Source of the DNA: a virus
Reading direction: 5' to 3' (one strand)
Length of the DNA: 44,582 bases
IMG/VR virus record: IMGVR_UViG_3300027906_001946
Span: 1 to 44,582 of that record
A model generated the notes under the pieces. That model made no database searches and was not told where the DNA came from. It saw only the letters and a program-made list of their open reading frames with translations. Of the stretch, positions 28,435 through 32,125 are shown piece after piece. Positions within the stretch are counted from its first letter, which is position 1; each line of letters opens with the position of its first letter. A program made the position numbers and the translations under genes.

Positions 28435-29568
28435 TTATGTATTTAGTTTCGTTGTCATCCCTTCATCCCATACTTTGAAATAGTATGGTGGCCATTGACC
28501 ATAGAACTTATCTTGTGTTCCACCACCATATTTTGTTGTAGGAATACAATCTGATATACTACTATATCCTAAAAACTTATCAAAGGTTGGATCATCAAAA
28601 TGAAATGTATTTGCATAATCCCAGAAAGGTGTATCATATTTTGATCCAAACTGATAATGCCATAGAACAAAGTTTTTAAGTTCATTTATATATTTTTTAA
28701 TATCTTGTGCAACATACTCTGCAGTGCATTTTTCTTGCAAATAATAATCAAAGACTCCTCTAGCCATTTCAAGATATGCTTGAGTGGAAGATGATTCTAA
28801 TGGTTCTAGAAAAAATAATCTATTCCCATTCTTAAAAATTCTTCCATCTACAATTGGTTCTTTTGCTACATAATTTTTATATTCAATATGATTTGTCACT
28901 TCAACATTAAACATTTCTAAGAAATTATATTCTGCTACTTCCTTTTGTGTTATCTCTGAGTTATAACAATATCCAACTGAATATTGATGTGATGGTGATT
29001 TCTTATGTGTTGGTATAACAAATGTCCATCCATCAGGAGTTGCAACATGTCTACTCCAAGGATTCTTTGCAGTGTTCCATTTTGGTTTTCCTAGAATACA
29101 TGCATTAGTTGGATTTTTTAATTCTTCGTATTCTAAAAAATCTTTTGGTTTACCTCTACAATCAAATACAAAATCAGAATCTACATCTTCAGGATCTACC
29201 TCACCTTCTGTCACTTTAAAATGACCAGATTGTAAAATACTTTTTTGCATTTCCCAAGGGCAGTAATGCATTGCCATACTATCTGAAGGGAAAGGTGCAA
29301 ATACTTTCTTATTAACTTTACCCCAACCCTCATATAATATACCACTTTTCATTGTGGCATTTATATTGTTATTATACCAATTAAATCCAGTAGTAGCCCA
29401 CAATAAACCAGGTGGTTCTAATACTGTTGCTTGACCTACTTTTTCAGGTGGTATTTCTGGGTTATATATTAACTCTACTTCTGAATTAGTTTGTTTACCT
29501 TTCCATGCACAATATAACGCAGTAAAACATCCTGCATTACCACCACCAACTACTGTTATCTTTGGCAT
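28435..29568 (-). CDS. Tryptophan-halogenase-like flavoprotein
   Basis: 377 residues, clearly shorter than bacterial tryptophan halogenases (about 510-540). The FAD fingerprint GGGNAG is at residues 8-13, and VGQATV near 44-49 parallels VGEATIP. K74 in ATMKSGILYEGW aligns with the catalytic lysine of PrnA-type halogenases. The WxWxIP motif appears as GWTFVIP (180-186), with Phe for the second Trp. The ESSS..YLEMARG segment is like the FAD-proximal helix. It may chlorinate or brominate an indole or a protein Trp; a non-halogenating flavin enzyme is the alternative. No tryptophan-binding pocket can be judged. An extended -10 promoter and structured leader precede it. Confidence 0.8.
   Translation of the reverse strand: MPKITVVGGGNAGCFTALYCAWKGKQTNSEVELIYNPEIPPEKVGQATVLEPPGLLWATTGFNWYNNNINATMKSGILYEGWGKVNKKVFAPFPSDSMAMHYCPWEMQKSILQSGHFKVTEGEVDPEDVDSDFVFDCRGKPKDFLEYEELKNPTNACILGKPKWNTAKNPWSRHVATPDGWTFVIPTHKKSPSHQYSVGYCYNSEITQKEVAEYNFLEMFNVEVTNHIEYKNYVAKEPIVDGRIFKNGNRLFFLEPLESSSTQAYLEMARGVFDYYLQEKCTAEYVAQDIKKYINELKNFVLWHYQFGSKYDTPFWDYANTFHFDDPTFDKFLGYSSISDCIPTTKYGGGTQDKFYGQWPPYYFKVWDEGMTTKLNT
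28439..28446 (-). promoter_or_regulatory. Late-promoter-like octamer before the tail-tube-like/uvsY unit
   Basis: Minus strand CTAAATAC overlapping the last codons of the halogenase-like gene, 27 bases before the 49-residue gene; AAGGAG follows. Confidence 0.45.
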
Positions 29569-29677: not shown

Positions 29678-29720
29678 TACTATTCATAATTTGCCATCAT
29701 TTATAAATATTATTTTAAAA

Positions 29721-29805
29721 CTGTGAGGGTAAGAGTCGAACTTACAAGTCCCGCCAGAGACACTAGTTAAACAGACTAGAGCGTTTACCGTTTCGCCACC
29801 TCACA
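29721..29805 (-). tRNA. tRNA with GUU (Asn) anticodon and a long variable arm
   Basis: 85 bases fold as a complete cloverleaf. The acceptor is TGTGAGG / CCTCACA (7 bp). The D stem is GCG/CGC with loop AAACGGTAAA. The anticodon stem is CTAGT/ACTAG with loop CTGTTTA, anticodon GTT. The variable arm is 17 bases with a 5-bp stem (GTCTC/GGGAC, one G-T). The T stem is GTAAG/CTTAC with loop TTCGACT. The discriminator is G and no CCA is encoded. GUU reads Asn codons, yet tRNA-Asn normally has a short variable loop and A37; here position 37 is T and the arm and D-loop resemble tRNA-Leu/Ser. It lies 9 bases after the synthetase-like gene. Charging identity is unknown. Confidence 0.88.
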
Positions 29806-29810
29806 ATGGA

Positions 29811-29827
29811 AGCCCTATGAAAGGGCT
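29811..29827 (-). other. Hairpin between the synthetase-like gene and the tRNA
   Basis: A 6-bp inverted repeat AGCCCT/AGGGCT with a 5-base loop spans the synthetase-like stop codon, 5 bases before the tRNA 5' end. It may mark a processing site on a joint mRNA-tRNA transcript. Confidence 0.4.
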
Positions 29828-30606
29828 GACATGAGACGTTGCATCCCGATTCCTCCACCACTTCTAGGGAAGAAGTCGAACTCTAAGAACTCTTCAAGTT
29901 CTTTCTCGACTCTTTCCTTACCAAATAATTTGTAGAGTAGTTCAGCATATTGCCCATCAGAAATAGTATGGAATGTTTCACGCATCTGTTCCTTATCGGT
30001 GCTGCGTTCCGCACTACCTATGGTTTCCATACCACCTAAGATAACATCAATCTTTTTACTGGTGTCATCTTCATTCCTTGCCATGTTCCAGAAAGGAGAA
30101 GTGAACTCAGGGAAATCAGTAATCATACCAGAACCAATTGCTCTCTCATGAACATGATCCAGTTCATCTGCTCTGAATTCCTTATTCCACTCACCATAAG
30201 TTTTAATGGTAAGATCAGGTAATCCAAGATGTTTGCATAATTCAATCTCCATTTGTTTAAGTTCTTCTACACCTCCCTTCATCTCAAATTCAAACATTGG
30301 GAAGATGGTTTCATGTCTCCCTTCTACAGGGTTTGGTTCTGCCCTATATGAAGTTGAGACACAAAAAAATCCTTCTACGGAAGGATTGGAAAGGAGTTCA
30401 TATTCTAACCACATCTGACCTGTCTGTGGTAAAGGCCATACTTGACCATTATAATTGTATGTTGCTACTGTCTCAGGATCTTCACAAGCAGCAAGTATAC
30501 TTAAACGATTTTGAGTATGAACCTCAAGAAAATTTTTAGACAAAAAAAATGACCTCAATAGGTCAACGGTCTCACTATATTTTTTAGGGTCAATCAGTGC
30601 AGTCAT
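29815..30606 (-). CDS. Class II aminoacyl-tRNA synthetase catalytic-core protein (AsxRS/LysRS-like)
   Basis: 263 residues from the ATG at 30606; an open frame further upstream belongs to antisense-like reading of gene 23 and its terminator. Motif 1-like FFLSKNFLEVHTQ is at 20-32, LPQTGQMWLEYELL at 59-72, motif 2 YRAE (87-90) with the downstream GRHE loop and FEFE (105-108), and motif 3 GGGIGMQR (250-257). TIGSAER at 195-201 resembles the EI.G..R segment of AsnRS/AspRS. The usual N-terminal OB-fold anticodon-binding domain is absent, so the protein is a core only, like archaeal-type AsnA or synthetase paralogues. It may charge the adjacent tRNA or make asparagine. Late-type promoter upstream; no Shine-Dalgarno is visible. 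Confidence 0.82.
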   Translation of the reverse strand: MTALIDPKKYSETVDLLRSFFLSKNFLEVHTQNRLSILAACEDPETVATYNYNGQVWPLPQTGQMWLEYELLSNPSVEGFFCVSTSYRAEPNPVEGRHETIFPMFEFEMKGGVEELKQMEIELCKHLGLPDLTIKTYGEWNKEFRADELDHVHERAIGSGMITDFPEFTSPFWNMARNEDDTSKKIDVILGGMETIGSAERSTDKEQMRETFHTISDGQYAELLYKLFGKERVEKELEEFLEFDFFPRSGGGIGMQRLMSALS

Positions 30607-30628
30607 TTTATTTATTGACAAAACTATA

Positions 30629-30636
30629 TTATTTAG
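30629..30636 (-). promoter_or_regulatory. Late-promoter-like octamer before the synthetase/tRNA unit
   Basis: Minus strand CTAAATAA, 22 bases before the ATG at 30606 and directly after the T-run of the gene 23 terminator. The placement fits a separate late transcription unit. Confidence 0.5.
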
Positions 30637-30639
30637 CAT

Positions 30640-30666
30640 AAAAAAAAGGCACCCGTAGGTGCCTTT
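30640..30666 (-). terminator. Terminator after gene 23
   Basis: Stem of 9 bp (AAAGGCACC / GGTGCCTTT) with a TACG loop, closed by C-G (a UNCG-type stable tetraloop), followed on the minus strand by a run of T. It lies 25 bases beyond the gene 23 stop. Confidence 0.88.
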
Positions 30667-30691
30667 GTGATTGAAAGAAGATATTGACTTC

Positions 30692-32125
30692 TTACATAAG
30701 GTTCTTAACTGCAACTCTTCTATAGTAGCGGTTGCTGTTAACCTGAAGACCACCAAGTCCTTGAGTGGTTCCTTCAGCGAATGGGTTTGCAACAAGACCA
30801 TATCTTGTCTTAAATCCAATTTTTGGCTGGAAGGAGTTCTCACCCACGGCACGAACCATCTGTAGTGGAACGTAAGGGCAGTAGAATATTCCTGCGTCAT
30901 AAGGAGATGATCCCTTATAACCAACAACGTAATACTGGTTACCACCTGTAGGTGCAGCGTTAGCAGCAGTAAGGTTAGCAGAATAAGGGTCAATGTAGAC
31001 TCTATACTTACCTTGTAGCACACCTGCGAAAGTGTTACCTGTATCGTCAACGTTAAGATTAGCGTTAAGAGCAGGGGTGTAATCAAGAACACCAGCCATT
31101 GTTAGTGCAGAAGCAACGTCAGCAGAACAAAGGATGATGTTACCCTTTCCACGACGAGTTCTTTGTGCAATAGCGTTAGCGTCTCTTTCTATTTGGAATA
31201 GAAGACCCTTGAACTTCTCAACTGACCATCTTCCGTTTGAGTCGATGTCTAAGTCGAATACACCAGCAGTAGCAGTGTTTTGAACAGCACCTTGCTCAGA
31301 AACCTTATAGATTGTTCTGATAACTTCTCTGTTGATTTCCGCAAGGATCTCAGTAGAGAGGATGTTAGCAAGTTCTGCCTCTGCATTCAATCCGTGGATT
31401 GCTTTGAGGTCTTGTGCTAGTTCTAAACTGTATTCAGCTTTCAACGCACGAGATTTCGCAGTAACTGTTACTTTCTCTATGCTGAATGCCATCTGGTTGA
31501 AGGCATCATTACCAGTTCCACTGAGATTCTCAGCGTCTCCAGTTACCATTCCTTGACCAACATTGTATCCACGAGTAGACGCAGATGCAACTGGGTTTAG
31601 AACAGCAGGGTTACCACCACTTTGTGATGTGGTTCCCATACCAGCGTTACCATCGGTAATACCAGCTGATTCATCGTTACCAGCATCTTGACCTGAGAAC
31701 GCAGTATCTACTTCATTGTAGAATGTCTCTGTTCCAGACTGTGATGTGTAACGTGAACGCATTGCAAAGATTAGTCCAGTTGGACCACTCATTGGCTGAA
31801 CACCAGCAAGATCGTATGCCACCAAGTTAGGCATTGAACGACGAATCAAGCTGATCAGCACAGGGTCGAAACCTGCAACTGGGCCTGCGGCAGTAGCACT
31901 ACCACCGAATCCACCACCAGCACCTGCAGCGTTTGCAGAGTTAGTTGGGACTGCTTCCATCAGGTTTAGACCTGATCCGAAGGCTTGTTCTTCTCTTAAA
32001 AATTTCTCTTGGTTTTCTAGCAGAACTGCGGTTACCGCCTTTCTATGATTGTCTTTGATTGGATCAAGACCTTCATAGTTTAATAACGGAGCCCACTTTT
32101 CCTGCAACTGTTCTGATTGGAACAT
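30692..32125 (-). CDS. 23: Major capsid protein gp23
   Basis: 477 residues (T4 gp23 521). The N-terminal pro-region ends in GLNLMEAVPTN; cleavage by gp21 is expected after E57, as at the equivalent LxE-A site in T4. The mature part begins with a Gly/Ala-rich stretch and shows LVAYDLAGVQPMSGPTGLIFAMR near 100-125, a hallmark of T4-type capsids, and FNQMAFSIEKVTV. It forms the icosahedral head shell. It is bracketed by scaffold gene 22 and a strong terminator. Confidence 0.96.
   Translation of the reverse strand: MFQSEQLQEKWAPLLNYEGLDPIKDNHRKAVTAVLLENQEKFLREEQAFGSGLNLMEAVPTNSANAAGAGGGFGGSATAAGPVAGFDPVLISLIRRSMPNLVAYDLAGVQPMSGPTGLIFAMRSRYTSQSGTETFYNEVDTAFSGQDAGNDESAGITDGNAGMGTTSQSGGNPAVLNPVASASTRGYNVGQGMVTGDAENLSGTGNDAFNQMAFSIEKVTVTAKSRALKAEYSLELAQDLKAIHGLNAEAELANILSTEILAEINREVIRTIYKVSEQGAVQNTATAGVFDLDIDSNGRWSVEKFKGLLFQIERDANAIAQRTRRGKGNIILCSADVASALTMAGVLDYTPALNANLNVDDTGNTFAGVLQGKYRVYIDPYSANLTAANAAPTGGNQYYVVGYKGSSPYDAGIFYCPYVPLQMVRAVGENSFQPKIGFKTRYGLVANPFAEGTTQGLGGLQVNSNRYYRRVAVKNLM

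Follow-up and report, generated by a model that had tools for sequence, protein, structure and literature searches.

An AsnRS-like mini-enzyme and its adjoining Asn-type tRNA in viruses, and their link to pyrimidine genes

In viruses, a gene for a synthetase core without an anticodon-binding domain is followed, at most loci, by a tRNA that conserves its signals for charging with asparagine and not those for decoding. The enzyme is linked to pyrimidine genes in viral and cellular genomes alike, and its cellular homologues are rarely found together with pyrB. We consider the chances about even that the tRNA and the mini-synthetase form one functional unit serving the synthesis of a pyrimidine precursor and not, or not mainly, decoding.

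An Asn-type tRNA and a mini-synthetase gene in a cyanophage fragment

The window, i.e. the whole stretch of 44,582 nucleotides analysed here, is a fragment of a T4-like cyanophage whose minus strand encodes capsid, portal and terminase proteins. The features discussed below, together with the annotated genes of three Prochlorococcus phages, are as follows.

29721..29805, minus strand: tRNA (ARAGORN; Rfam, 51.1 bits; direct reading; kept in P-SSM7, P-SSM2 and P-SSM5; covariation)
29811..29827, minus strand: hairpin AGCCCT-TTCAT-AGGGCT, read from the sequence, spanning the stop codon of the mini-synthetase gene (29815-29817) just before the tRNA
29815..30606, minus strand: mini-synthetase gene, 263 aa (translation, homologues, PF00152, alignments, AlphaFold2, fold search)
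L001:4218-5015 (P-SSM7): mini-enzyme gene annotated 'tRNA ligase'
L002:4263-5003 (P-SSM2): mini-enzyme gene annotated 'tRNA ligase'
L003:2263-3003 (P-SSM5): mini-enzyme gene annotated 'tRNA ligase'

ARAGORN predicted a tRNA-Asn(gtt) at 29720-29806 on the minus strand, and the Rfam tRNA model matched at exactly 29805-29721 with 51.1 bits, against a cut-off of 29. Direct reading bore out the anatomy described in an earlier, sequence-only reading of this DNA: a GUU anticodon, U37, a 17-nt variable region with a 5-bp stem (U-GUCUC-UGGC-GGGAC-UU), a Leu-type D arm and G73 as the discriminator base. The acceptor stem, UGUGAGG/CCUCACA, gives a U1-A72 pair; the D stem has 3 bp (GCG/CGC), the anticodon arm reads CUAGU-CUGUUUA-ACUAG, with U33 present and A38 following U37, and the T arm reads GUAAG-UUCGACU-CUUAC. 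CCA is not encoded in the window tRNA.

G73, U1-A72 and GUU are ordinary identity elements of bacterial tRNA-Asn, and the window tRNA shares them with 118 relatives; it differs from canonical tRNA-Asn in its long variable region and in carrying U37 instead of a purine after a normal U33. With tRNA-Leu it shares the body and the long variable arm, whereas G73 and GUU stand in place of A73 and a Leu anticodon. A covariance model built from 30 relatives found chiefly tRNA-Leu in cellular genomes, which confirms the Leu-type body; as the best cellular matches were Leu, a Tyr- or Ser-type body was ruled out. The window tRNA is thus most aptly seen as a Leu-type body that bears the charging signals of tRNA-Asn. 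The suggestion of a hybrid identity holds to that extent, G73 being ordinary in tRNA-Asn and no sign of mixture; charging with another amino acid, also suggested, is not favoured by G73, U1-A72 and GUU, although a few relatives carry GUC (Asp). The closest tRNAs are those of the Prochlorococcus phages P-SSM7 (93%) and P-SSM2 and P-SSM5 (83%), all with U37 and a long variable arm. A sequencing or assembly error, which might have produced these features, was ruled out by their recurrence in relatives from independent isolates and contigs.

The mini-synthetase gene ends at 29815, with the tRNA 9 nt downstream. Its true start lies at about 30606, within a longer open reading frame (29815-31092) whose 5' part is spurious and overlaps the capsid gene. 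A homologous gene directly precedes the tRNA in P-SSM7, P-SSM2 and P-SSM5, where the record label 'tRNA ligase' invites misreading of the mini-enzyme as an RNA-repair ligase. Such a ligase, as in T4-like tRNA repair, was ruled out, since the sole Pfam match is PF00152 (class II synthetases for Asp, Lys and Asn) and the fold is that of a class II synthetase core. The protein scores far under every equivalog cut-off, with 18 bits against 342.6 for the asnS family model and 17 bits against 389 for that of asparagine synthetase A.

The AlphaFold2 model of the 263 residues (pLDDT 93.2, pTM 0.90) retrieved AspRS and AsnRS:Asn-AMP with a TM-score by query of about 0.78 and archaeal asparagine synthetase A (3rex, 3reu) with about 0.75. 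The mini-enzyme starts just before motif 1, and the anticodon-binding domain, N-terminal in AsnRS, is absent. The arginines of motifs 2 and 3 are invariant in the family alignment and the AsnRS-type Q..QLYLE segment is kept, while a C-E-D-P loop replaces the EGG type. The gene at 29815-30606 therefore encodes an AsnRS/AspRS-like class II catalytic core without the anticodon-binding domain. In fold, motifs and the Q..QLYLE segment it resembles the class IIb enzymes AsnRS and AspRS (PF00152); it differs from them in the missing domain, in its low identity to solved members (about 18-20%) and in its linkage to pyrimidine genes.

The hairpin at the end of the gene exists in several compensated sequence versions and recurs with compensated changes in cyanophage loci; over 52 distinct viral gene-tRNA junctions the longest stem averages 6.3 bp, as against 4.1 bp in shuffles. 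It is possibly a processing or coupling signal. Just downstream of the tRNA, the gene at 28435-29568 on the minus strand resembles tryptophan halogenases (phrog_2928), which is unusual for a phage. No pyr gene was found in the 44.6-kb window record.

Conservation of the pair and of the tRNA's charging signals

A scan of viral collections yielded at least 600 stretches, all encoding relatives of the mini-enzyme. From the listed matches of three scans and from phage records, 162 non-redundant viral loci with room downstream were assembled. ARAGORN found a tRNA within 400 nt downstream in 134 of them, one of which (L259) is an ordinary tRNA-Leu, and 11 further linked tRNAs with long variable arms, missed by the program, were identified by eye. 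A tRNA of this Asn type thus directly follows the mini-enzyme in about 144 of the 162 loci, at a median distance of 8 nt; about 18 show none adjoining the gene. In a quick tree, the viral enzymes and a few probably viral MAG contigs form one clade (SH-aLRT 97) inside the cellular tree. Two distant homologues from huge phages, L086 and L087 (LR756501 and LR756508; 45-48% identity), fall outside this clade and have no adjoining tRNA. The tRNA-Leu(UAA) at L259:4858-4944, which occupies the place of the Asn-type tRNA, possibly hints at the origin of the Leu body.

Among 118 unique linked tRNAs, G73 is invariant, position 1-72 is U-A in 117 and U-G in one, and nearly all have the GUU anticodon. By contrast, U33, present in practically all elongator tRNAs, is lost in 27 (A in 17, C in nine, G in one), and at position 37 about 103 have U, about 11 have G and four have A. 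The variable region ranges from 3 to 29 nt, and a single member, L237 (CUGUUAA), has a fully canonical anticodon loop. As a control, 47 other tRNAs from the same viral loci all have both U33 and a purine at 37. Charging signals are therefore protected and decoding signals are not, the combination expected of a dedicated non-translational tRNA; among the possibilities raised by the sequence-only reading, action outside decoding is accordingly the best supported. The fold itself is under strong selection: in an alignment of 30 relatives, 99.5% of cells are paired, 20 of 25 pairs show double changes, and the covariation score is 0.740 compared with 0.228 in shuffles. Outside the cyanophages, CCA is mostly encoded.

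The retention of GUU adds nothing to decoding, because host tRNA-Asn has the same anticodon. Since the mini-enzyme has no anticodon-reading domain, it points instead to charging by the host AsnRS or a non-discriminating AspRS. Three tRNAs with the Asp anticodon GUC (L266:3868-3963, L275:4859-4955 and L277:4225-4321) have a different D arm, and a near relative with the same body, L298, has GUU; they suggest that Asp may also serve.

Alternatively, enzyme and tRNA may be a private translation pair, in which a minimal AsnRS reads the acceptor end and the variable arm and loads its own tRNA with Asn, the tRNA then decoding Asn codons during infection independently of the host synthetase and of t6A. 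The constant adjacency of a synthetase core with intact ATP motifs, and the kept GUU, would be consistent with this. However, many members have lost U33 and purine 37, yet all 47 other viral tRNAs have kept them; GUU confers no decoding ability beyond that of host tRNA-Asn; and the cellular homologues lie in pyrimidine gene clusters without a tRNA. We regard such a pair as rather unlikely.

Another possibility, in part already voiced as a cleavage-resistant decoy, is a decoy or replacement tRNA that withstands host anticodon nucleases. Phage tRNAs can counter tRNA-cleaving defences, and the anticodon loop is indeed altered. Nevertheless, the loops vary at positions 33, 37 and 38 and present no single resistant form; the constant partner is a synthetase core and neither an RNA-repair enzyme nor a defence gene; and the pyrimidine genes near some of the loci would be left unexplained. 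This explanation appears very improbable.

Cellular homologues and pyrimidine genes

Homologues about 45-70% identical to the P-SSM2 protein have a patchy distribution across Bacteroidota, Patescibacteria, relatives of Rickettsiales, Pasteurella atlantica and others, where they are stand-alone proteins of about 260-320 aa whose loci mostly have no tRNA nearby. A private tRNA of the U37 type was sought in 12 genomes encoding the enzyme and none was found, the hits resembling chance matches or Gln tRNAs. A hidden private tRNA was likewise rejected on inspection of the tRNA-model hits in cellular genomes, which were Leu or Ser tRNAs.

Within about 5 kb of the enzyme gene, 24 of 79 cellular loci have a gene of the dihydroorotate dehydrogenase type (pyrD) and 22 of 79 have genes for orotate phosphoribosyltransferase and/or OMP decarboxylase (pyrE/F); in Midichloriaceae the order is enzyme-pyrF-pyrE-pyrD-prs-tkt. 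Presence and absence were scored in 30 genomes with the enzyme and in 14 control genomes; many of the genomes analysed in this study are incomplete MAGs. In the former set, pyrB exceeded the cut-off in one genome and carB in three; pyrC, represented by two families, did so in one and none of the 30, with weaker amidohydrolase matches in 11. Matches over the cut-off were obtained for pyrD in 19 of the 30 (11 being without) and for OMP decarboxylase in 23. All 14 controls have pyrB, carB, pyrD and OMP decarboxylase.

The same contrast was seen at a narrower taxonomic level, in 150 genomes from the order of the Chitinophagales MAG G003: pyrB was present in none of the six genomes with the enzyme and in 136 of the 144 without it (Fisher one-sided 2e-7, not corrected for shared ancestry), and five of the six carry pyrD no more than about 1 kb from the enzyme. 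In eight genomes of this set (G039, G040, G054, G079, G110, G116, G122 and G128), no match to pyrB or to the mini-enzyme exceeded the threshold; pyrD is strongly matched in at least three of them, G039, G040 and G128. The eight may be incomplete assemblies or may use a further route. Given the linkage to pyr genes and the absence of pyrB and carB, the enzyme seems to take the place of two steps, that of carbamoyl phosphate and that of aspartate carbamoyltransferase.

Pyrimidine genes also accompany the viral enzyme: pyrE at four loci (L024, L029, L046, L082), pyrF at two (L187, L199), prs at L167 and a pyrD-type gene in three cases, beside L307 and in two phage-like contigs, L088 and L092. Among the named phage isolates searched, this type of pyrE occurs only in P-SSM2, P-SSM5 and P-SSM7, the very isolates that carry the enzyme and the tRNA, in what is a small sample of two species. 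In six single-cell assemblies of marine viruses, pyrE was present and the enzyme was not detected, and no dihydroorotate dehydrogenase gene was found in P-SSM2 or P-SSM7. Overall, the pyrimidine link of the enzyme-tRNA pair is well supported.

This link could also be read as that of an enzyme acting in pyrimidine synthesis without any tRNA, the viral tRNA being a regulator or sensor (of charging or Asn supply, for example) or a structural or processing element of the transcript. The cellular homologues without a linked tRNA would agree with this, as would the conserved hairpin linking the tRNA to the 3' end of the gene. On the other hand, regulation does not obviously need U1-A72, G73, GUU, a complete covarying fold and, in most members outside the cyanophages, an encoded CCA; we hold this interpretation to be unlikely. 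The mini-enzyme might, finally, be an asparagine synthetase (AsnA or the archaeal type) converting Asp to Asn, with an ordinary though degenerate translation supplement travelling along. It has in common with archaeal asparagine synthetase A and bacterial AsnA a synthetase core without an anticodon-binding domain (TM-score about 0.75 by query), but it is far under the AsnA cut-off, lies in a pyrimidine gene context and, in viruses, comes with a tRNA. The linkage to pyrD, pyrE and pyrF, the absence of pyrB and carB and the disparity between charging and decoding signals would all be unaccounted for, and asparagine synthesis therefore seems improbable.

A possible role for a charged tRNA in pyrimidine synthesis

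As a more specific form of the functional unit introduced above, we tentatively propose a tRNA-dependent entry into pyrimidine synthesis; it is possible, and less probable than the unit as such. An enzyme derived from AsnRS would make dihydroorotate from tRNA-held Asn (or Asp) without carbamoyl phosphate or aspartate carbamoyltransferase; the private, non-decoding tRNA of the viruses would keep the charged pool from draining into translation; and scattered bacteria and archaea would use the enzyme in place of pyrB. In the functional unit as such, the host AsnRS or a non-discriminating AspRS, or less likely the mini-enzyme itself, would load the tRNA with Asn (or Asp), because it keeps the GUU, G73 and U1-A72 that such synthetases read. 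With its decoding features let go, the loaded pool would be poorly used by ribosomes. The mini-enzyme, an ATP-using core, would then employ the aminoacyl-tRNA to reach dihydroorotate by a different route, one that needs neither carbamoyl phosphate synthetase nor aspartate carbamoyltransferase; in a variant, the amino acid would be used in free form and the tRNA would act as acceptor or carrier. We infer that the tRNA is aminoacylated and not used in decoding, that dihydroorotate is the product, and what chemical part the tRNA plays; that the aminoacyl group is delivered to a metabolic enzyme is suggested by the gene linkage.

The chemistry is attractive, if unproved: Asn already holds N1, C4-C6 and the amide N3 of dihydroorotate, so that one bicarbonate-level carbon and ATP activation would be all that is needed. 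The AsnRS-like pocket, with its Q..Q..LE segment kept and the altered C-E-D-P loop, might suit a modified Asn. In a phage, the route would avoid the early, regulated part of host pyrimidine synthesis. Several observations go against the proposal. No private tRNA lies near the cellular homologues, and 12 genomes yielded none of the U37 type, so that the reaction itself may not require the tRNA; about 18 viral loci have no adjoining tRNA, and 11 of the 30 genomes with the enzyme have no pyrD over the cut-off; the window tRNA itself has U33, and the window record has no pyr gene.

Dedicated non-translational tRNAs have precedents in the tRNA-Gly of cell-wall synthesis in Staphylococcus and in tRNA-Glu, the carrier in C5 tetrapyrrole synthesis. 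The proposed system would resemble both in that an aminoacyl-tRNA serves metabolism, and the former also in tRNA changes that disfavour translation; it would differ in amino acid, pathway and partner, and in being encoded by viruses. With the classical entry through CarAB, PyrB and PyrC it shares the downstream pyrD, pyrE and pyrF, whereas the mini-enzyme is an unrelated protein that occurs chiefly in the absence of pyrB and carB. The open-access literature, a scope that may miss subscription papers and preprints, yielded no report of the pair or of the pathway. A job for a tRNA in making pyrimidine nucleotides rather than proteins would, if true, be new.

De novo pyrimidine synthesis is regarded as one of biology's most uniform pathways. 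A scattered, synthetase-derived replacement of its first committed steps would, if true, alter the way in which genomes are used to diagnose pyrimidine auxotrophy, as in Patescibacteria and relatives of Rickettsiales. A viral tRNA acting as a metabolic cofactor would represent a new class of viral auxiliary gene and would caution against counting every phage tRNA as an aid to translation. Whatever the chemistry, the viral loci provide a natural set of more than 100 tRNAs in which the constraints of charging and decoding come apart.
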